Source of the DNA: a virus
Reading direction: 5' to 3' (one strand)
IMG/VR virus record: IMGVR_UViG_3300029319_000432
Coordinates: 1 to 23,321 of that record
DNA length: 23,321 nt
The notes beneath the pieces are model-generated. The model worked only from the letters and a program-made list of their open reading frames with translations. It made no database searches and was not told the origin of the DNA. The stretch's first letter is position 1. Every line of letters begins with the position of its first letter. This document shows, piece by piece, positions 177 to 12,894 of this stretch. The position numbers and the translations under genes were made by a program.

Positions 177-2387
177 TTAGAAACAATCATTCCATGATGA
201 ACCATTCCAGACTTGAAGTTTATTTGTATTAGTATTATAGATGATAGCACCTGATGGCACAGCACCTCCTGTCCTAGAAGTCAATGAGTTTCTCTGAGCA
301 TTTGTTACTTTAGGTGGTAACATATAAGATAATGCAGCCCTTGAAGCATTGTCCGCAAAAATATCAACACAATTCGAGAAGTCAACAGCACATAATCCTG
401 TAGTAACTCCAACCACTAAACCATGAGCAAATCTCGCATCCCCATTTACATCTAGTTCAATATTAGGTGTGAGAATTGAAGTCATTATTCCAACCTTACC
501 ACCAGTATTAATAAAGAATCTTTCTGCTACATTACTATTGACAGTAAATTTATTACCACTTGCTGTTAATCCAATTCCAATACTGGTGCTTTCTAAATCT
601 TGTATTGTAGAAATTCCAACTGACTTGATATTACCAGTAACATTACCAGTTAAATTACTAATTGTTGCATCTTGAACTGTGAGAACACCATCAATAAATA
701 CAGCATTTGTAAATGTAGCAACACCAGTAATCTTTGAAGTACCTGCGACTGATAATTTATGTTGTGGTTGTGTGATACCAATACCTAAACTGCCTGTGCT
801 TGATAATGCCATCAACGGATTTGAATTACCTCTATGCCATACGAAACTACTAATTCCAGTAATAAAGTAGTTAAAGTTTCCATCGCCATGATTAATAATA
901 TCTAGTGCTTCCGAACCACTAAATGATGATGCACCACCACCGTATCGGATTTGTAGGTTATTATCTGCTACTGCTGGATTCTTTCCAATAACAATCGAAG
1001 ATGCTCCTGAAGAATCATGTATTTGTATATTCGCATTTGCTGTTGCAGTTCCAACTCCCAAACTAGTAGCAGTTGCAACACCAATACTCGAAACTGACGA
1101 AGTGACGATACCAACTAAATTTCCTGTGACGCTTCCTGTGACGCTTCCTGTTACTCCACCTACAAGAGAACCTGTAAATGTTGTAGCTGTTACAGCAGTT
1201 CCAGTTAAATTACCAGTGACATTACCTGTAACATTTCCTGTAAGAGGCCCTGCAAAACTCGTAGCAGTCATTGTTCCCCTGACTGTTGAGTTATGTTCTG
1301 TGTCTAGTACATTTGAGTTTGTCTGAACAGAATTACCCATCTTTGCATGATTAGAGCATTGATAATGTAAGACTATTGGTGTAGTATCAGTAACAACTAT
1401 CTCTGTGTATGCACCTGCCGAACCTTGAGTTCCAGCAACAGTCACACCTGTAGTATATGCAGTCGTTTTATCTACATCATAATAAAATCTAAGTGGATGT
1501 AGTGCATTAGTGCCATCTGACTGATCGAAACGATAGGTACGGCCTGGTGTGAGAGTTATAAATGGTGCTTCTACTCCATCAATCTTATATCCATTTGAAC
1601 TACCTGAACCATTGTATCTGTGTGCTGAAGTTTTGGATGCTACTGTCACAATAAATGTTGTTGTAGTTCCATGTATTGATCGGATAGTGCTATGACCTTT
1701 TAATGTTGCTGTCGTGAAATCAGTTACATTTAAGGTTGCGATAGTACCGATACCTGCTGAATTTATATTTCTGACTGTTATATCTGGTGTACCTGTCAAC
1801 CCCTGTGCGTTGGTTGCGACTGTTGCTGAAGCTGCTTGTGTTGCGTTTGATGCTGTTCCAGTTAAGTCTCCAGTTACATTTCCAGCTAAATTTCCTGAGA
1901 AAGTTGTTGCTGTGATTACACCTGACGCTACAACACCACCTGTTGTATTAAAACCGACTCCAATTCCATTACTTGGATTACCACCAATCTGAAGGCCATT
2001 CTCAGGATTTGTTGTTCCAATTCCAACATTGCCTTCAACATAAATTGGCGATGCACCTGCACCAACTACATTTACATTTTGCCATTGAGATGTTGGAAGA
2101 TTTGATAAAGTTGAACCATCCCCCTTGTAAGAAGATGCAGTTATGACACCACTCGTAGAATCAAATGTAATTGTCGATCCAATACTTACCTGAGTGAATG
2201 TAGATACACCACTTATTTCTAAATTATTTGCTGTAATTATCCCTATGACTTTTGCATTACCTCTTACATCAAGGCTCTCATCTGGGGATGTAGTTCCAAC
2301 CCCGACTCGATCTCCCTTTACTACGAGAGCTTCATCGTCTACTTGAACTCCATCTCTGAAATTAAAAGTCTTTCTTATATTAGACAT
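177..2387 (-). CDS. Tail fibre protein with embedded cupredoxin-like domain
   Basis: This 736-aa protein has the look of a trimeric phage fibre. It has repeated 'VGIGTTxPE' and 'VSGVSTF/ITGVATF' modules, long runs of short beta-repeats (GNVTGNVTGNLTG and VTGSVTGSVTGN, about residues 385-425), and a C-terminal 'GAIIYNT.TNKLQVWNGSSW' segment typical of fibre tips. Residues about 255-358 are different: a globular beta-rich insert with His297, Cys344, His347 and Met350 in the arrangement of type-1 copper (cupredoxin) ligands. It ends the structural block and is followed by a terminator. A late-promoter-like AATAAATA lies about 20 bases upstream of its ATG. It is probably a distal or accessory fibre. 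Which T4 fibre it replaces cannot be said. Confidence 0.8.
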   Translation of the reverse strand: MSNIRKTFNFRDGVQVDDEALVVKGDRVGVGTTSPDESLDVRGNAKVIGIITANNLEISGVSTFTQVSIGSTITFDSTSGVITASSYKGDGSTLSNLPTSQWQNVNVVGAGASPIYVEGNVGIGTTNPENGLQIGGNPSNGIGVGFNTTGGVVASGVITATTFSGNLAGNVTGDLTGTASNATQAASATVATNAQGLTGTPDITVRNINSAGIGTIATLNVTDFTTATLKGHSTIRSIHGTTTTFIVTVASKTSAHRYNGSGSSNGYKIDGVEAPFITLTPGRTYRFDQSDGTNALHPLRFYYDVDKTTAYTTGVTVAGTQGSAGAYTEIVVTDTTPIVLHYQCSNHAKMGNSVQTNSNVLDTEHNSTVRGTMTATSFAGPLTGNVTGNVTGNLTGTAVTATTFTGSLVGGVTGSVTGSVTGNLVGIVTSSVSSIGVATATSLGVGTATANANIQIHDSSGASSIVIGKNPAVADNNLQIRYGGGASSFSGSEALDIINHGDGNFNYFITGISSFVWHRGNSNPLMALSSTGSLGIGITQPQHKLSVAGTSKITGVATFTNAVFIDGVLTVQDATISNLTGNVTGNIKSVGISTIQDLESTSIGIGLTASGNKFTVNSNVAERFFINTGGKVGIMTSILTPNIELDVNGDARFAHGLVVGVTTGLCAVDFSNCVDIFADNASRAALSYMLPPKVTNAQRNSLTSRTGGAVPSGAIIYNTNTNKLQVWNGSSWNDCF
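1123..1146 (-). repeat. 12-bp tandem repeat inside the fibre gene
   Basis: On the plus strand CCTGTGACGCTT occurs twice in tandem (1123-1134, 1135-1146), followed by a diverged third start (CCTGTTAC). It encodes VTGS units of the fibre repeat. Related GNVTG units continue at about 1200-1245. Such repeats can expand or contract by slippage. Confidence 0.8.
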
Positions 2388-2406: not shown

Positions 2407-2414
2407 TATTTATT
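2407..2414 (-). promoter_or_regulatory. T4-type late promoter candidate for the 736-aa fibre
   Basis: The minus strand reads AATAAATA (2414-2407), close to the T4 late -10 box TATAAATA, about 20 bases upstream of the fibre ATG. Its central TAA is the stop codon of the upstream oxygenase gene. Confidence 0.5.
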
Positions 2415-3039
2415 CACTTTCTTTATTACCAAAAAAACTCGTAATGGCATATCTCCCAAATCCATCATAGTAATCTGAATCTTTAATACTTACCTTAGTC
2501 ACTCCATGCTCAACCCATGCTGGCATTATAATTATAGAGTTGTTATCGCAACTAAACGAGTAATTATATTTAGGGAAGAATAATTCACCTCCTTCAAATC
2601 TTTTTGGTTCACGATAGAAGTAGGAAAAAGCAAGAAAATCAAAAAAATTATCTGTATGAGGCTCATAGAAATCACCATCATGATAGTATCTTACTTTTGT
2701 ATGGTCGTAATTAGATTGCATAGAGTGTAAACAACAATCATGCAATTTTGAGAATGGTTCTAATACCTGTGGTTCAAATACCTTACGATTAACTGTAAGA
2801 ATATTTGATAACTTTCTAAATTTTTTAGGATAAACAACATCAAGATAAATCGCTTTAGCATTTGTTTTATCAACAACTCCAAGATATTCTTTTACATCTA
2901 ATAACTTATCAGGTTTTGTGTAAAAATCTAGTTCCTCCCATATAAGTTTAAGTTCCTCATCATTATAAAAATTGTGAAGAATTAAATGGGGAAATGGTGT
3001 CTCGTATGCGTCTGCCTGTATTTGTTCTGTCATTTCCAA
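2410..3039 (-). CDS. 2-oxoglutarate/Fe(II)-dependent oxygenase
   Basis: This 209-aa protein has the prolyl-4-hydroxylase-like double-stranded beta-helix signature: the HxD iron motif at His128-x-Asp130 ('EPHTD'), 'EGGELFFP' at 149-156, the distal iron ligand His178 ('WVEHGV'), and Arg196 ('GRYAITSFF') positioned to bind the 2-oxoglutarate carboxylate. The enzyme should couple oxidative decarboxylation of 2-oxoglutarate to hydroxylation of a protein or small-molecule substrate. The substrate is unknown. It differs clearly from the other two oxygenases here, which use HxE and Lys. Its start overlaps the preceding 60-aa ORF by 10 bases, which implies coupled translation. Its stop codon lies within a late-promoter motif. 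Confidence 0.88.
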   Translation of the reverse strand: MEMTEQIQADAYETPFPHLILHNFYNDEELKLIWEELDFYTKPDKLLDVKEYLGVVDKTNAKAIYLDVVYPKKFRKLSNILTVNRKVFEPQVLEPFSKLHDCCLHSMQSNYDHTKVRYYHDGDFYEPHTDNFFDFLAFSYFYREPKRFEGGELFFPKYNYSFSCDNNSIIIMPAWVEHGVTKVSIKDSDYYDGFGRYAITSFFGNKESE

Positions 3040-3692: not shown

Positions 3693-4036
3693 AATTCAAT
3701 CCTCCTCATCTTTAATGGGAATCTTTTTCTTCTAATATATTTACCCTCAACAACCTTATCAATTAAATCTCGTACATCAAATTTATCATCTATTTTTGTT
3801 GGTATATTTTCTGTAATTGTATCTAATTTATCTTCTTGCTCCTCAACTAATCTTAAACCATACTGTCTTATTAAACTGTCCGAAAAAGTAAAGTAATCAT
3901 AGGTGTCAAGATTTTTTAAATCAATCGCATATGATCTATACTCATCTATTGGTTTTCTAGATTTTTCATAACAAAATTTAACTGATATGGACTGTGCTTC
4001 CTCATCATATCTAACAATTTTAAAAATTATTTTCAC
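3689..4036 (-). CDS. Hypothetical protein (115 aa)
   Basis: The function is not recognised. The N-terminal half looks like a small beta-rich domain (MKIIFKIVRYDEE...ISVKFCYEK). The C-terminal half is charged and helical and ends in a basic stretch (KYIRRKRFPLKMRR). The start overlaps the end of the upstream 2OG oxygenase by 17 bases and the end overlaps the next gene by 4 bases. Its place among fibre genes makes a fibre-assembly role possible, but no chaperone motif is visible. Confidence 0.6.
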   Translation of the reverse strand: MKIIFKIVRYDEEAQSISVKFCYEKSRKPIDEYRSYAIDLKNLDTYDYFTFSDSLIRQYGLRLVEEQEDKLDTITENIPTKIDDKFDVRDLIDKVVEGKYIRRKRFPLKMRRIEL

Positions 4037-4598
4037 CTTGAATCACCCCCCATGATGTTGCAATATATTTAGTGCCACCAAGTGGTGGATTACCTCTGTG
4101 TGTATGTGTAAATGAGGCTGGAAATATCAGAACATCCCCTGCCACTGCTTCCTCTCTTCTCTGTTGATATAAAAATTCTGTCTCACCTCCATCAAAATCA
4201 TCATTCAAATAAACTTGAACAACAAACTGTCTGCGTGATACTTCTAATGCACCATTCTCATAATGCCACGCATGAAATCCTCCACCAGCCGGTATCTCTT
4301 TTAATTTAATATCATGCAGTAAAAATTTTCGTAAACCTAGCACTCCAAATGCCTGTAGATATTCATCCACACAAGGTTTAAGTTTAGGAAAAATATCCTC
4401 TGCAAGTCTGCTTGATGAAGAGAAATCATACTCATGTGTGATATTTACTGTCTTATGATCTTCCCTTGCTAATTTATTTTTATCATAGTAGAGTAGGTGA
4501 TTTTTTTCAAAAAAATGTATTCCCTCTATTATTCTCGTACAATCCTCTTTTGAGAAAGCACCACTATATCTTCTTATTAAATCAGTCTCAAATGCCAT
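4020..4598 (-). CDS. 2-oxoglutarate/Fe(II)-dependent oxygenase (HxE type)
   Basis: This 192-aa prolyl-hydroxylase-like enzyme has candidate iron ligands His112-x-Glu114 ('HAWHYE') and His165 or His167 ('FTHTHRGNPP'), 'GGETEFLYQ' at 137-145, and Lys177 ('KYIATSW'), probably binding 2-oxoglutarate. It is a clear paralogue of the oxygenase at 12307-12894, with ligands at identical residue numbers and the shared strings GGETEFLYQ and HRGNPP. It lies directly after the glycine-rich adhesin candidate (22-base gap) and overlaps the next small gene. The substrate is unknown; modification of a fibre protein or of a host protein or metabolite is possible. Confidence 0.87.
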   Translation of the reverse strand: MAFETDLIRRYSGAFSKEDCTRIIEGIHFFEKNHLLYYDKNKLAREDHKTVNITHEYDFSSSSRLAEDIFPKLKPCVDEYLQAFGVLGLRKFLLHDIKLKEIPAGGGFHAWHYENGALEVSRRQFVVQVYLNDDFDGGETEFLYQQRREEAVAGDVLIFPASFTHTHRGNPPLGGTKYIATSWGVIQGENNF

Positions 4599-4620: not shown

Positions 4621-5676
4621 TTATAGCACAGTCGTTGCGTTTTGCACACCATTAATACTTCCGTTGTTTGTTACATTGACAGTGAATCCTGTATTTCTTC
4701 TTATCGCTGCACCAGCAGACCCTCCAGCCGCACCCTGATAAGTTGATCCCTCACCACCAGTTCCTGTAACTCCTGTCCCTGCTGCTTGTGTTGCTTCACC
4801 ACCTGCACCACCTGCACCAGAGATCGCCTCTCCATCATTATTTCGACCACTACCACCTGCTCCTCCTTCACTTATAGTACCTGCGTTTCCTGGCTGTCCA
4901 TTAAGATTTGCGTTGATACCTCCACCACCACCATCACCGGCTGGAATACCTGCACCACCTCCTCCTCCACCACCAGAGGAAGTTCTTGTTGCTTCTTTAT
5001 CGGTGTCGTATGCACCACCGCCACCACCACCGCCACCAAATCCTGCTGTGATGACACCACCTGATGCTACATTAACTGTGGTAGGACTATATTGAATACC
5101 TAATCCTGATGTACCAGACCCCCCTGCAACAGCAGCACCAGGCCCATCAGAGCCTCTACCACCATCGCCACCAGCACCACCGATTCTACCTGAACCACCT
5201 ACATCAACCTGTAGTGTTGTTGATGAATCCCATGATCCAGTTCTTAATGCACAATGTTCAACTCTTGTTTTTTCTGATCCGATCTGTTGATTGACATGAA
5301 TATGTACTTTTGTTCCTGATGAATTGCTTGGTCTTGTTCTATAATTACCTATAACATTTACATCCCCAGATGAGTTAGAATTATATCTGTCTTTCGCTAC
5401 TAATCTACTACCACCTTTACCAGAACCATAAAAATTTACCACCTGTTGCAATCTAGTGCTACGAAAATCAGATATTTTGATCTGTCCTGATGTCGGAACT
5501 GAACCACCAGTTTGTGCATCAATTGAATTGAACTGCAATGTACCAAAAGATACGGGAAAGTTACCCTGCCCGTTGGTAGTGCGATAGTCTCCTAACTTTG
5601 TTGATGATCCATTAGTAAAACCAAACTCATTGGCTATATCTCCGAGTGATATTTGTCCTGATGATGGTAGTGCCAT
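4621..5676 (-). CDS. Glycine-rich tail-fibre tip / adhesin candidate
   Basis: This 351-aa protein starts with a small domain carrying two related motifs (PSSGQISLGDIA at 4-15 and PTSGQIKISDF at 61-71), a common opening in marine phage fibre-associated proteins. After a beta-rich middle, residues about 155-330 are dominated by glycine runs (up to GGGGGGGG) in repeated GGxGG(A/D)GG units. This composition resembles the polyglycine-II adhesin of the T-even gp38 type, in which packed glycine helices display variable receptor-binding loops. The gene begins with a TAATG overlap on the stop of the giant fibre gene, the same order as gp37-gp38 in T2-like phages. The adhesin role is inferred. It could instead be an independent fibre. 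Confidence 0.75.
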   Translation of the reverse strand: MALPSSGQISLGDIANEFGFTNGSSTKLGDYRTTNGQGNFPVSFGTLQFNSIDAQTGGSVPTSGQIKISDFRSTRLQQVVNFYGSGKGGSRLVAKDRYNSNSSGDVNVIGNYRTRPSNSSGTKVHIHVNQQIGSEKTRVEHCALRTGSWDSSTTLQVDVGGSGRIGGAGGDGGRGSDGPGAAVAGGSGTSGLGIQYSPTTVNVASGGVITAGFGGGGGGGGAYDTDKEATRTSSGGGGGGGAGIPAGDGGGGGINANLNGQPGNAGTISEGGAGGSGRNNDGEAISGAGGAGGEATQAAGTGVTGTGGEGSTYQGAAGGSAGAAIRRNTGFTVNVTNNGSINGVQNATTVL

Positions 5677-8600
5677 TACTTTTTAAGTTCGTTAATTTCT
5701 GATTTAAGTTCTTTAATCGCTTCAATTAAAACTGGTATCAGTCTATCGTAGCGAACACCAATCGTTCCATCTCCTCTTGTCTTGGTGAGGCCAGGTAATT
5801 TTAATTTCTCGACCTCTTGTGCGATAATTCCAGTATCACCACCTTCAAGTCCCCAGACTCCAGCATTTGATTTCCAATCGAATGTGTTACCTGTAAGAGA
5901 ACTGACCATATCTAGAGCATTATCAATCGGTGATACATTTTCTTTCATTGTCAAGTCAGAAGAACTAAATGCGATAACATCACCTGTGAAGGTTCCTGAC
6001 CCTGCTACAGATAGATTATCATTGACCTGAGTTGTACCAGATGCAGAATCCAATATAAGATTTCCAGTTATTGTATCAATCTCATTATTATCAGATCCAA
6101 ATGCGATCCTTACATTACCAAAAATACCACTCGCTGCAATGATATCACCAGTGAATGTTACAGTAGAACCATTCACATCCCCAGTAATATTGAGATCACC
6201 CGTAACATTTAAGTTATCATCTACTGTTACCGTACCGCCAGAGGAGTCAATTGTAAGATTACCCGATAAGGTATCTATCTCATTACCATCAATTCTTACA
6301 TTATCAATCTCTGCTCTCACATTAACATCTAGAATGTCATCAACTGTAACTGTTCCACTCGCTGAGTCAAGTGTAAGACCACCAGTTGAAGTATCAATCT
6401 CATTATCATTTGTGACACCAATTCGTATGTTACCATTTGTAGCACCATTTGAACTAAAGTCTCCACTTACAACAACATTATCTTGAATTGTTGTTGTGCC
6501 ACCTGCTGAATCAATAATGATGTTGCTGTTACCAGTGGTTCCAAGCATATTTGCTGTGGTGATTCCAACTTTAAATGCACCTATTTCAGCACCACCGTCA
6601 ATATCCATCAAACCTGTAAATGTTGATAGACCTGTGACTTTTAAGTTGTTTACTGTTGTGATACCTAACACATTTAAGTTTTCACCAACATTTAAGTTTT
6701 TCTCAATACCAATACCACCATCTGTAATTAGTGATCCTGTGTCACGACTATGTGAATTGGTTTTATTTGTTATCTCAAATGTACCATTAAGTTTGATAAG
6801 TTGATTGACTGTTAATGCTGCATTGACCTTAACGACCTCGTTAAATGTTACAGGCCCATCAAACTGTGTAAGAATGGTTCTTGACTTACCACCCTCAACA
6901 ACTAATCTTTCCTTGACGATTACTTCATCAAATATAACTGATAGTCTTGATGGATCTTCACCTGTGACTGTTGGGATAGGAGCATCGAATGTTCTCTCCT
7001 GACCAGTTGCAGAACTAACTCTCTTGTTACCAATGAAGAAGTCACCTCTGTTGTTCATACCTGTGTAAACAACAGTACCACATGATCTCTCTTGTGACTG
7101 TGTTAGGAACTCTTCCCTTTCAGTTAGTGTTCTGACCTGAACCTGTGGTAGTGCAGTTGAGTAGTTACCTGGCCCGAATCCAAGATATTCAAATGTATGA
7201 CCAGATGCACGAATAATAGATGGTCGTCTAAATTCGATTGGTATTGGTTTGATTTTCTTAACCAACTCACCTGAAGAATGACTCTCCTGAATCGTACCTA
7301 ATGCTCCACGAATAACTGTTAGTTCATTGCTACCTGAACCACTAATGGATGCAGACTTAACTCTCATTATTTCATCACCAACTTGTAGGTATGAACCTAA
7401 ATCAAATCTACTTGTTGTTCCAATACCTGCATTTGGTAAAGATATCTCTAAAGATGATCCTGTAGTAACATCTGCACCTAAATTAAATGTTTCGTTATCG
7501 TAGAATGTAAGACCCCTTGAACCAATGTTCTCATTTTCCTTGTCAGATGTAGGAGTTGCGGGAGCCATTCCATTTGGAAGAACTGTTGTTGGGGATGCTA
7601 ACTGAACAGTCGTAGTTGCTGAGAAAGTGTTTACACCAACTACTGTCTTAACAAAGAAGTTACCTAAATTATTGTTATTATTATCTAATACTCTAAACTG
7701 ACTACCAGCAACAAATCCATGACTCTTAGTAAATGTAAATGTTGATATACCAGTAGTAGCATCTACCGTTGATACACCCGATATGGTGGATTTAGGCCCT
7801 TGATTAATTGCAAATTGTCCAGTAATAATATCAGGATCACCAGTCGTAACAGCGATTGACACAGAAGTTGTTGATCTGACTGATGAAATCGCTACTATAT
7901 TATCTGTAACTGTTCCAACACCAGTGATTTGAAGTGAATCTCCTACATTTGTGCTTATACCTGTAACACCTATTACTACTTTAGCACCTGACCCACCTGT
8001 GAATGAGTTATCTATATCTAGAGTTTCTGTTCCCGTGAATCCAGAACCACCCTCAATAATCTCGACAGCTGAAACTGCGTTACTTGATACGACAACTTTC
8101 GCTGTTGCACCATCCCAAGTAGTGGTTCCTTCGTTTAATAGTTTGACATTATGATAAGTGCCATTTGTCAAACCTGATCCACCAACAATTGAAGCAACTT
8201 TTACAATACTGCCAAATCCATGTGGTCTATCAAATGTGATAGTTGTATGACCAACACCCATAGCACCACCAGTGCTGACCCCAGATATAATTTTTGCATA
8301 TCCAAAGTCTTTAACAATTTTATCAGTAGTCTCTCTAGTGATACTCTTTCTTTGATCATTTGTTGATACATCACCGATAGGAGCTCTCTTTGCAAAAGAT
8401 GCAGCAGATGGTGGGTTTGAATGATTATTATCTCGATCTAATTGTGGATACAAGTCAACAACATTTTGTCCGTACTTAACACCTGTGAACTCTGTAGGTA
8501 TTTCATTGTCAGCATGAAGAACAAATAAATGGTAGATACCATCCTGTACATTCTTAATGTAAGAACTTATAGTCTCATTTCGATAGATGTAGAAATTACT

Positions 8601-11462
8601 TTGTAAATTATTTCTTTCAAATCTAGGTAATGTTGTTGTCCTGTTTGATATATTATTTGTAAAGTTACCTATTGTATGAGTTACACCTGCTGTATCTGTT
8701 GTTGGATAAGTAAATGTTTTATCATCAACTACAGAGCTTACCAAGAATGAACCATTGTAACCTTTGTTGAATACACCTGTAGATGTTCCACTATTGTCAG
8801 TGACATTCTTCACAAAAATTCTTTCACCTGCTTTTAAATGATGAGGTACATCAGCGATAACTGTGACTGCTGTACCTGATACAGAACAAGTGCTGATAAA
8901 TCTAGGGTTACGATCAAAGTCGTAATCGCTCTCTGTGATTGAAGTTCTGGTAAAGTCTCCAACATTTCTTACATTAGTTGATGAAGATTCTTGTAAAATA
9001 AATCCTTCTTCTGGATTCTTTCCATTTTCAAGTTCTTTTGGTACAACTACTCTAAGTTTGTATACTTTTTCATCTAGTGATCTTTCATCAGCAATTCTCT
9101 TAATGAATGATACGGGTGTGTTGTTACCAAGATTACCTACACCCAATGTATTCATTGTAGTGTAAATTTGGTTATCAGTCGCAGCATGAATATACCAGTT
9201 TGAATTTACTGGGTCGAATTGTATGGGTGAACCAATTTCACCAGAATCCTTATCAGATACACGACTTTCAATATTTAATTTTGTTCCTCCATAGATGACT
9301 AGAGAAGTTCCCAGTGTAGCGTTTGTTTTTGATGATGCAATTTTAATCTGTGTCGCAGAGTGTCTAATTGCAAAATAAACTGTATTTTCCTCTAAATTTT
9401 CTGGTAAATCACCATCGTCACTAATTACCCTAATCTTTTCACCTGTTAATAACTCATGAGCTCCTAGTGTTAATATGTTTGATGTAGGCCCTGATTGAAC
9501 TGTATATTTCTTGATACTTGATGTGGTTCCTAGTGCAGATGTTATACCAGATGATGATATTTCATTATCTACCATGAAGATGGATGCTGAACTTACACCA
9601 TATCCAGTTACATTTACACCATCATTAACACTTGTAAAGTCAACAAATACATCATCATTTGTTTTTGCACCAACACGATAACCTTGAATTACAACTGGTG
9701 GAACATTATCTTTTGTGTTAAATCCAAATAGGTAAAGATGACTTGTGATACCAACAGATGTAGTTAAACCAACATCTAATCTCTGCCAATCAATATTTGT
9801 TTCTGTAGAAGTTATTGCTTTCGGTGCAATAATTTGAGTGATATATGCGTTGTCGTCTTTGGTAAATGCTTCTTTCTTGAATCCGTCAGAGGCAATCGCA
9901 AACTGTCCAAAGTTTGAGTTAGAGTTTGTAACTGAAGCATCAGCACCAGTTTCTGCATTGAAGTGTTTATTGAAACCAATCGCAAATACTGATACAATCT
10001 GCATGACTGCATCATTTGTTAGTTTGATATGAGTTGTTTCAAATTCCTGACGATAAACTGCATCAGAGTCTAAATGATAGACTGTGGATGAGTCTTGTGA
10101 TGATGAACCAGAGGCAAGAGCAGCACCAGTAACCTTAGTGATACCTATTCCTTCATATAATCTCGAAGATTGATTATACTTAACAAATGCTCTGTCATCT
10201 TTTTGTAGTGAAATTGCAGTAAACTGTGCTACAACCATTGATTTGAAACCAGTAGCCTTATCACCATCTGCAAGCATACCATTCATTCCAAAGACAGAAC
10301 GAAGAGATATGTTGAAAATATAAGGTGATGCACCTGAAACAGTATCGGTTTCAATAGTTACTGTTGCGGATGAAGCACTTGGAGTTGCTGGTAAATTATC
10401 TCGTACAAATGGTAATAAGTATGTAAATACTGTGCTACTTGTAACATTTTGTACTTTTGTTGATATATTGTAGTCAAATGTATCGACACCTTTTATTTTA
10501 ATGGGTGTGTTTGTTGTCAGTCCATGAGCAGTCGCAGTGGTTACTGTAACAATAGTTCCGGGTGTAGATCCATCACCTGAAATAATACTTGAAATATTAA
10601 TAGGGTCAGATGCAAATGCTCCAACTATTTCAAATTCTGGTCTTTGTGGTGCGAATCCTAATGAGTTTGCAGGGAATCTATCAATCGCATCTATCGGTCT
10701 AGATGTAGTGTTAAATGCGTTTGATAATTTACTATAATATATGTCTAAGTCAGTTAAATTAAATCTCGTATCAATGTTTACACCGTCAGCATACTCAAAA
10801 CAAGTTAGTTTGTGGTGAGAAAATGTTGGTGTTGACTGATTATTAGCAGAAAAATCAGATGGGTCTGTAAATACAAGTCCACTTTCATCTCCGTCAAATA
10901 TTGAGAACTGCCAGAAATAACATGTACCAGTTAATCTGAATATTGCAGATTTTGCTGCTGTACTATCTGTTGGGTTAGGAACATACTTAGGTCTTACTTT
11001 TGTCTTTCTTAAATCTAATCCAACGAGCGATGTACCACGAGGAACAATGACACCACCATTGATACTATTAAACTTGTAGAGAATATTATCTTCTTGAGTT
11101 AAATCAAAATTAGATGTTAAATTAAGTGATAAAGTTTCTGATGCTGTGCTTTCTGCACCTGATGGTGATACAGCAGTTGCAGTGTTACTAACTTCTTTTA
11201 CAGCAAATCCGGGCCTATTATCAATAATATGCTCACCGGGAAAAAGTAATATTGTTGTTTTCTCGATTAAATCGTTATTGTTTCCTCTTAAATATGAAAA
11301 TCTAGCAGACTCAAGTAAAGCCCTTTGGATTGTCTTAAACGGTTGTGCTAAAGAGTTTCCTTGATTTGTTATACTGTCGGTTGCATCCAAGTCACTTGGA
11401 TTTACATAGAGAATCTTACCCTCAGTGTTCTTTATAAAATTCTCTAACTTATTAAGTGGCAT
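5676..11462 (-). CDS. Giant tail fibre protein with C-terminal S74 intramolecular chaperone
   Basis: This 1928-aa protein is the largest in the window. The N-terminus ('ILYVNPSD...AQPFKTIQRAL...TILLFPGEH') resembles a pectate-lyase-like beta-helix cap. The middle carries recurring beta modules with an 'HG(F/L)xxGxx(I/V)' signature (His313, His669, His875, His1081, His1248). Near the C-terminus are about four repeats of 'NEID(T)..GNL.LDS.SGT..V.DNL' (roughly residues 1645-1825). The last 94 residues match Peptidase_S74: Ser1835 with Lys1840 (SDLTMK) forms the expected dyad, followed by 'GIIAQEVEKL' and a coiled-coil end. This domain folds the trimer and then cleaves itself off. The gene begins about 28 bases after a late-promoter motif. 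It is probably a main or proximal tail fibre; similar large structural proteins in cyanophages have been labelled VrlC-like. Confidence 0.88.
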   Translation of the reverse strand: MPLNKLENFIKNTEGKILYVNPSDLDATDSITNQGNSLAQPFKTIQRALLESARFSYLRGNNNDLIEKTTILLFPGEHIIDNRPGFAVKEVSNTATAVSPSGAESTASETLSLNLTSNFDLTQEDNILYKFNSINGGVIVPRGTSLVGLDLRKTKVRPKYVPNPTDSTAAKSAIFRLTGTCYFWQFSIFDGDESGLVFTDPSDFSANNQSTPTFSHHKLTCFEYADGVNIDTRFNLTDLDIYYSKLSNAFNTTSRPIDAIDRFPANSLGFAPQRPEFEIVGAFASDPINISSIISGDGSTPGTIVTVTTATAHGLTTNTPIKIKGVDTFDYNISTKVQNVTSSTVFTYLLPFVRDNLPATPSASSATVTIETDTVSGASPYIFNISLRSVFGMNGMLADGDKATGFKSMVVAQFTAISLQKDDRAFVKYNQSSRLYEGIGITKVTGAALASGSSSQDSSTVYHLDSDAVYRQEFETTHIKLTNDAVMQIVSVFAIGFNKHFNAETGADASVTNSNSNFGQFAIASDGFKKEAFTKDDNAYITQIIAPKAITSTETNIDWQRLDVGLTTSVGITSHLYLFGFNTKDNVPPVVIQGYRVGAKTNDDVFVDFTSVNDGVNVTGYGVSSASIFMVDNEISSSGITSALGTTSSIKKYTVQSGPTSNILTLGAHELLTGEKIRVISDDGDLPENLEENTVYFAIRHSATQIKIASSKTNATLGTSLVIYGGTKLNIESRVSDKDSGEIGSPIQFDPVNSNWYIHAATDNQIYTTMNTLGVGNLGNNTPVSFIKRIADERSLDEKVYKLRVVVPKELENGKNPEEGFILQESSSTNVRNVGDFTRTSITESDYDFDRNPRFISTCSVSGTAVTVIADVPHHLKAGERIFVKNVTDNSGTSTGVFNKGYNGSFLVSSVVDDKTFTYPTTDTAGVTHTIGNFTNNISNRTTTLPRFERNNLQSNFYIYRNETISSYIKNVQDGIYHLFVLHADNEIPTEFTGVKYGQNVVDLYPQLDRDNNHSNPPSAASFAKRAPIGDVSTNDQRKSITRETTDKIVKDFGYAKIISGVSTGGAMGVGHTTITFDRPHGFGSIVKVASIVGGSGLTNGTYHNVKLLNEGTTTWDGATAKVVVSSNAVSAVEIIEGGSGFTGTETLDIDNSFTGGSGAKVVIGVTGISTNVGDSLQITGVGTVTDNIVAISSVRSTTSVSIAVTTGDPDIITGQFAINQGPKSTISGVSTVDATTGISTFTFTKSHGFVAGSQFRVLDNNNNNLGNFFVKTVVGVNTFSATTTVQLASPTTVLPNGMAPATPTSDKENENIGSRGLTFYDNETFNLGADVTTGSSLEISLPNAGIGTTSRFDLGSYLQVGDEIMRVKSASISGSGSNELTVIRGALGTIQESHSSGELVKKIKPIPIEFRRPSIIRASGHTFEYLGFGPGNYSTALPQVQVRTLTEREEFLTQSQERSCGTVVYTGMNNRGDFFIGNKRVSSATGQERTFDAPIPTVTGEDPSRLSVIFDEVIVKERLVVEGGKSRTILTQFDGPVTFNEVVKVNAALTVNQLIKLNGTFEITNKTNSHSRDTGSLITDGGIGIEKNLNVGENLNVLGITTVNNLKVTGLSTFTGLMDIDGGAEIGAFKVGITTANMLGTTGNSNIIIDSAGGTTTIQDNVVVSGDFSSNGATNGNIRIGVTNDNEIDTSTGGLTLDSASGTVTVDDILDVNVRAEIDNVRIDGNEIDTLSGNLTIDSSGGTVTVDDNLNVTGDLNITGDVNGSTVTFTGDIIAASGIFGNVRIAFGSDNNEIDTITGNLILDSASGTTQVNDNLSVAGSGTFTGDVIAFSSSDLTMKENVSPIDNALDMVSSLTGNTFDWKSNAGVWGLEGGDTGIIAQEVEKLKLPGLTKTRGDGTIGVRYDRLIPVLIEAIKELKSEINELKK
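5985..6530 (-). repeat. Tandem protein-coding repeats in the giant fibre
   Basis: About four diverged copies of a 35-60-codon unit encode '(D)NEIDT-x-GNLxLDSxSGTxxVxDNLxVxGD'. The first copy is less complete (IIIDSAGGTTTIQDNVVV). They sit just ahead of the S74 domain and probably form a repeated beta-structure in the fibre shaft. Confidence 0.75.
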
Positions 11463-12300: not shown

Positions 12301-12308
12301 TATTTATT
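12301..12308 (-). promoter_or_regulatory. T4-type late promoter candidate for the fibre chaperone
   Basis: AATAAATA on the minus strand lies about 15 bases ahead of the GTG start. It overlaps the stop of the upstream oxygenase gene (TAATAAATA). Confidence 0.45.
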
Positions 12309-12894
12309 ATATAAGGGTCGTTGGTTCACCCATATTATTGCTTGCTAGCCAACCAGTTGCGATATATTTTGCCTCATATGGAGGATTACCACGATGAAGA
12401 TGCGTAAAAGAGCCTGGGAAGATTAGTACTCTACCCCTCTTTGATTTTATTTTTTGTTTTTGATATAAAAATTCTGTTTCACCTCCCTCTTTAACATCAT
12501 TAAAATATACAGACCAAACTAAAGTTCTATTCGCACAGGCAATATTATTTGATTCAGAGTGCCAATCATGATATCCCTCCGTTGGTTTTGTTTTCTGTAA
12601 TAAACAGGTAGTGCTATGATAATTAAAATTTTTTAAAAATGGATACCACTCGATATATTCTTCTAAACACATTCTAACTGCACACATTATATGTGCAGAT
12701 ACCATTGGATTAAAGGCAGCGATGTCTAATTGAGTATCTTTAACACTTGTATTACTTCGTGGAATTATTTGAGTTGACTCATCAAGTGTTTTGATAATAA
12801 AATTACTGAAATCATCTTTTACTACATTATCCCACACTCCAATAAAGTCTTTATTTAAAAAGACTTCTGGGGTATTAAAATTTTTATCATACAT
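12307..12894 (-). CDS. 2-oxoglutarate/Fe(II)-dependent oxygenase (HxE type)
   Basis: This 195-aa enzyme is paralogous to the one at 4020-4598. The candidate ligands fall at the same residue numbers: His112-x-Glu114 ('HDWHSE') and His165 or His167 ('FTHLHRGNPP'), with Lys176 ('KYIATGW') for 2-oxoglutarate. It also shares 'GGETEFLYQ'. The N-terminal 60 residues differ, which suggests different partners or substrates. It lies between the collar-domain fibre and the fibre chaperone, so it is embedded in the adhesion module. The reaction should be 2-oxoglutarate-dependent hydroxylation; the substrate is unknown. Confidence 0.86.
   Translation of the reverse strand: MYDKNFNTPEVFLNKDFIGVWDNVVKDDFSNFIIKTLDESTQIIPRSNTSVKDTQLDIAAFNPMVSAHIMCAVRMCLEEYIEWYPFLKNFNYHSTTCLLQKTKPTEGYHDWHSESNNIACANRTLVWSVYFNDVKEGGETEFLYQKQKIKSKRGRVLIFPGSFTHLHRGNPPYEAKYIATGWLASNNMGEPTTLI

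Follow-up and report, generated by a model that had tools for sequence, protein, structure and literature searches.

The tail fibre gene and its surroundings

The window, by which we mean the whole stretch of DNA analysed here, covers 23,321 of the 26,093 bases in the record of a marine bacterial virus. Its main genes are all encoded by the minus strand and are part of a tail and baseplate module of the T4-like kind, whose products include the tail tube (PF23849), the baseplate hub, hub/lysozyme-like proteins, one fibre of 1928 aa and further fibres. One of these fibres, of 736 aa, carries a cupredoxin-like domain within its shaft, and its features are as follows.

177..2387, minus strand: tail fibre gene, 736 aa (phrog_30742 tail fiber protein, E 2e-80; phrog_3269 tail protein, E 1.2e-43)
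1683..2387, minus strand: N-terminal region of the fibre, residues 1-235, which co-occurs with the domain in every complete close homologue
1314..1664, minus strand: cupredoxin-like domain, residues about 242-358 (modelled as 242-366), assigned by AlphaFold2, by Foldseek against the PDB and by the family profile against plastocyanin
1497..1499, minus strand: His297, predicted ligand 1, aligned with plastocyanin His37, in the loop before model strand E58-61
1356..1358, minus strand: Cys344, predicted ligand 2, aligned with plastocyanin Cys84, at the end of model strand E98-103
1347..1349, minus strand: His347, predicted ligand 3, aligned with plastocyanin His87
1338..1340, minus strand: Met350, predicted axial ligand 4, in the C-x2-H-x2-M loop
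180..1286, minus strand: shaft repeats and C-terminal region, residues 368-736, of varying length among homologues

The domain is flanked by shaft repeats of the GVTGxVTG type, which do not match the domain profile. When the fibre and the domain were searched against Pfam and NCBIfam, no significant family was found, and a weak match to RrgB stayed under its cut-off. The sequence-only reading had placed an insert at residues about 255-358 of the fibre; a separate domain is indeed present there, but its real start lies further upstream, near residue 242. In close relatives of the fibre, the domain occupies the same place in every complete protein, and more distant relatives of the N-terminal region are without it.

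Several neighbouring genes of the module have features of their own. The 1928-aa fibre (5676-11462, minus strand) ends in a Peptidase_S74 intramolecular chaperone, and a 351-aa fibre (4621-5676, minus strand; phrog_11439) has a glycine-rich C-terminal half with long GGGG runs. Three 2OG-Fe(II) oxygenase genes (PF13640, phrog_61), located at 2410-3039, 4020-4598 and 12307-12894 on the minus strand, are interleaved with the fibre genes, and fibre residues are possibly the substrate that these enzymes modify. The genes at 4020-4598 and 12307-12894 also match phrog_2297 and phrog_274, which are named 'DNA endonuclease' families in PHROG; since these families match 2OG-Fe(II) oxygenases, the labels may be wrong.

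Predicted fold and relationship to plastocyanin

AlphaFold2, given 33 aligned members of the family taken from the window and from IMG/VR loci, produced a confident model of the domain (pLDDT 93.9, pTM 0.87) with eight strands. When the model was compared with the PDB by Foldseek, ranks 1-9 were rusticyanins and one copper nitrite reductase (best E 8.6e-4), and the rest of the first 50 included multicopper oxidases, AcoP, plastocyanin and amicyanin, with a few adhesin and titin Ig folds among the weaker matches. Both the count of about eight strands and the top PDB neighbours are those of the cupredoxin superfamily, and the fold that had been proposed from the letters alone is therefore supported by structure prediction. 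The TM-scores to solved cupredoxins were 0.4-0.5, which indicates a match at the superfamily level with no close relative.

The four predicted ligands were all located at the residues first proposed (His297, Cys344, His347 and Met350) and in the cupredoxin order. In plastocyanin, one His stands ahead of a strand, the Cys ends a strand, and the second His and the Met lie in the following loop. The model agrees with this layout, as His297 precedes a strand, Cys344 closes a strand and His347 and Met350 lie in the next loop, and we counted this agreement in favour of a cupredoxin. The H...C...H...M order round the last inter-strand loop, as in a type-1 site, was thus found both in the sequence and in the placement of the strands.

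Sequence comparisons pointed in the same direction, mainly through distant members of the family. The profile of the close family had three matches in the PDB, every one a copper protein (best E 0.0084), and the fibre of P-HM2, a distant member, matched plastocyanin 1b3i first among PDB sequences (E 0.0021), followed by nitrite reductases and amicyanins. When the whole family was aligned by hhalign with five cyanobacterial and phage plastocyanins, the probability was 94.1 (P 1.3e-7) with all four ligands in register, whereas the close family by itself reached 6.5%, which is not significant. The close family was connected to a plastocyanin-like subfamily at 99.5%, and that subfamily to plastocyanin at 95.8%. 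For Pfam PF00127 (Copper-bind), the window domain gave no match at the gathering cut-off, the fibre copies of P-SSM2 and P-HM2 scored 19.8 and 19.3 bits, below the cut-off of 21.2, and a Bacteroidetes surface-type member of the family exceeded it with 31.8 bits. A phmmer search of the PDB with the single domain returned chance matches to Phe-tRNA synthetase only. Because the close family alone is not significant and the domain has no Pfam match, the link to plastocyanin rests on the distant members.

Retention and loss of the four predicted ligands

In a first sample, all four residues were invariant in 61 of 61 distinct copies. The search was also run over all fetched loci with the four ligand columns masked in the profile to avoid circularity, and H-C-H-M was found in 301 of the 312 distinct copies that span all four columns. 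Conservation of the ligands, which the sequence-only reading had proposed to check, is thus supported in homologues. Among the 11 exceptions, one ligand was lost in two copies, exactly two in none, and three or four in the remaining nine. Column shuffling predicted 0.03 copies with at least three losses, against the nine observed, although the joint loss stems from about five lineages and the shuffling overstates its significance. Copy counts are inflated by related sequences, and the loci were gathered by peptide patterns, some containing the ligand motif and most not, which leaves a residual bias. After clustering at 80% identity, losses of 0, 1, 2, 3 and 4 ligands numbered 141, 1, 0, 3 and 5, and at 50% identity the set comprised 22 intact members and 5 that lacked three or four ligands. 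All 11 copies read from named isolates kept the four residues; they come from gp9-like proteins, a gp7-like wedge protein and one protein each of a podovirus and an actinophage. The distance from His to Cys ranges from 41 to 70 residues across the family. In the baseplate wedge protein of S-SKS1 (locus L416, around 1301-1610), the ligand loop is longer, C-x4-H-x2-M.

Since three or four ligands went missing jointly in nine of the 11 exceptions, the four residues behave as one site that is kept or given up whole, and this joint behaviour argues for real metal binding, most likely of copper. The main alternative is that the cupredoxin fold has been reused as an Ig-like binding or spacer module, in which the four residues would be relics or structural. 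Phage tails employ many metal-free Ig-like domains, and copies without ligands do persist in virion proteins (loci L130 and L132, and gp7 of P-HM2). For example, P-HM2 gp7 contains a tandem pair of domains (about 896-1136 of the frame), of which the second is intact and the first carries His to Lys, Cys to Asp and Met to Thr changes; the loss in the first copy is common to orthologues, and the same tandem pattern occurs in locus L217. The model of the ligand-less gp7 copy, which was built from IMG/VR loci, has low confidence (pLDDT 52.7), so that retention of the fold without ligands is judged from sequence only. Against scaffold reuse, all four residues are kept in the great majority of copies even though distant cluster representatives are only about 25% identical to one another, and the losses come as a set. 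We consider this explanation improbable, and homology to cupredoxins with a selected, predicted metal site is highly probable.

A true metal site may also hold zinc or another ion, or a purely structural Cu(I), rather than a type-1 blue copper centre. His2Cys sites are able to bind Zn(II), blue copper proteins made recombinantly often carry zinc when isolated, and virions are assembled in the cytoplasm, where free copper is scarce. However, an axial Met at a constant spacing is typical of copper sites, the C-x2-H-x2-M spacing is constant in 300 of the 301 intact copies, and the neighbours of the domain by both sequence and structure are copper proteins. Zinc or a structural ion thus appears slightly less probable even than scaffold reuse. 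We therefore regard the domain as probably a beta-sandwich of the plastocyanin/azurin (cupredoxin) type within the fibre shaft, in which the four ligands form one predicted mononuclear metal site, most likely for copper. With respect to the metal alone, copper is favoured at nearly the same strength.

Distribution, possible role and comparison with known systems

The domain was earlier described as an insert in a fibre, and a search for it in other marine phage fibres was proposed. It is present in the fibre, but the description was too narrow, because the domain recurs over several tail parts in at least 352 phage records and in some bacterial surface proteins. Using the window domain as a tblastn query, 35 phage records were matched; using the fibre copy of P-SSM2, at least 352 were matched, chiefly of Synechococcus and Prochlorococcus phages. 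The majority of the matches to the P-SSM2 copy are gp9-like 'baseplate wedge tail fiber connector' proteins with the domain at their C-terminus, and further carriers are gp7-like baseplate proteins and a protein of podovirus P-GSP1. Phages of Pelagibacter and Methylophilales and one freshwater Actinomycetia phage carry the domain too, and Foldseek against predicted viral structures (BFVD) gave 66 matches at E < 1e-3. The domain is thus a recurring virion component of marine phages, with a known fold in a new place. Its near-constant ligand set in hundreds of ocean phages suggests that a metal ion may be present on the tails of many of these particles. Within the open-access literature, which was the scope of the search, we found no paper describing a domain of the cupredoxin or plastocyanin type on the tail of a phage, and we provisionally consider the phage-tail domain undescribed.

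Some of the copies lie outside tailed phages. The BFVD matches include pithovirus- or marseillevirus-like 'beta-sandwich proteins' (A0A481Z6J5, A0A481YWX9, A0A481YY19 and A0A481Z7Q7). In a Bacteroidetes single-cell genome, copies are found in large surface-type proteins (loci L095, on a 1.06-Mb contig, and L345), and those on the 1.06-Mb contig look cellular. These bacterial copies, one of which scores above the Pfam plastocyanin cut-off, suggest that phages and bacterial adhesins may have exchanged the domain. A match on a 189-kb contig filed as Prochlorococcus (locus L100) was also considered as cellular, but this status was rejected; the contig has, besides a petE of phage type, large proteins that resemble fibres, and it probably represents a cyanophage within a single-cell genome.

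The domain sits in the fibre shaft, in the fibre-baseplate connector and in the baseplate, which are places of structure and adhesion, not of enzymatic activity. An adhesive or structural role is our working suggestion for the domain itself, although we hold it with less than even confidence. We propose that the fibre would fold in the reducing cytoplasm with its Cys free, and that copper may enter the site either during lysis or from the surrounding sea water. The bound metal would then hold both sheets and the ligand loop together as a stable, bulky knob, and such a knob, on the shaft or at the joint of fibre and baseplate, could take part in attachment or in the packing of fibre and baseplate. 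Electron transfer would not be necessary for this role.

A redox or sensory function would fit with the fact that most cupredoxins carry electrons; the copper centre would then pass electrons to or from the host surface, or set off attachment according to the metal or redox state. Among the scanned genes of the window, however, none was recognised as a redox partner, and the domain is not tied to photosynthesis, as it is carried by phages of Pelagibacter, Methylophilales and Actinomycetia, and no plastocyanin gene was found in pelagiphage Mosig. With hosts that are partly non-photosynthetic and with Mosig lacking the gene, the domain is unlikely to be linked to electron flow in photosynthesis, and we consider a redox or sensory role very improbable. 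Just as remote is a non-cupredoxin beta-sandwich of the Ig or prealbumin type in which an H..CxxHxxM pattern arose by chance; this reading is suggested by TM-scores of at most about 0.5, the adhesin and titin folds among the weaker Foldseek matches and weak Pfam matches to SpaA_3 and Ig, and is opposed by the cupredoxins at PDB ranks 1-9, the in-register match to the plastocyanin profile and the one family member that passes PF00127.

The predicted copper site has several implications. An apparent copper site is conserved across fibre and baseplate parts of cyanophages, pelagiphages and methylophages whose annotations say no more than 'tail fiber', 'baseplate wedge' or 'hypothetical'. Should the site hold metal, phage particles would depend on a trace metal in a way that has gone unrecognised, host attachment would gain a new testable handle, and the idea of metals on phage tails would widen from iron to copper. 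If copper is needed for virions, phage infection would depend on trace copper in sea water. The broadest statement, that the virions of many marine tailed phages are copper (or metal) proteins, with a plastocyanin-related type-1 domain on the fibre, the gp9-like connector or the baseplate and with copper needed for stability or host attachment, is possible but in our view doubtful.

Compared with known systems, the phage domain has several familiar and several distinct features. First, it resembles plastocyanin and azurin (PF00127) in its beta-sandwich, with one His close to where a strand begins, the Cys where a strand finishes and the second His and the Met in the loop after it, and its C-x2-H-x2-M loop has the length, and the ligand spacing, of the amicyanin subgroup. 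In contrast to plastocyanin and azurin, which are stand-alone secreted electron carriers, it is embedded in a virion protein, it shares about 19% identity with them, its His-to-Cys distance is the variable one given above, and the window domain falls below the Pfam cut-off. Second, domains of rusticyanin, copper nitrite reductase and multicopper oxidases are its best neighbours by Foldseek and by PDB profile, but with TM-scores of just 0.4-0.5, and neither type-2 nor trinuclear copper sites are apparent in the phage domain. Third, the cyanophage plastocyanin petE (P-SSM2, Bellamy) is present in some domain-bearing phages; it differs in being a separate gene, with open frames of 116-131 aa, and a known photosynthesis gene. 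A recent origin of the fibre domain from phage petE was rejected, as the sequences are too divergent. The annotated families that carry the domain, namely the phrog_30742 tail fibre, the phrog_677 gp9-like connector and the phrog_708/32294 baseplate wedge, are silent on a copper fold. The histidines of the window fibre (232, 239, 256, 297, 341, 347, 365, 457, 500, 518, 543 and 655) include none two apart, and the fibre is thus without His-x-His. Finally, HxH iron sites in phage fibres (T4 gp37, Alteromonas phage R22Y; 'Ferrojan/Trojan Horse') have been proposed to serve in attachment (PMC11705849), and they share with the window fibre the presence of metal-binding residues on a fibre, predicted in our case. 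Those iron sites are octahedral and built from His-x-His, whereas the window fibre presents a folded domain with a predicted His2CysMet site.
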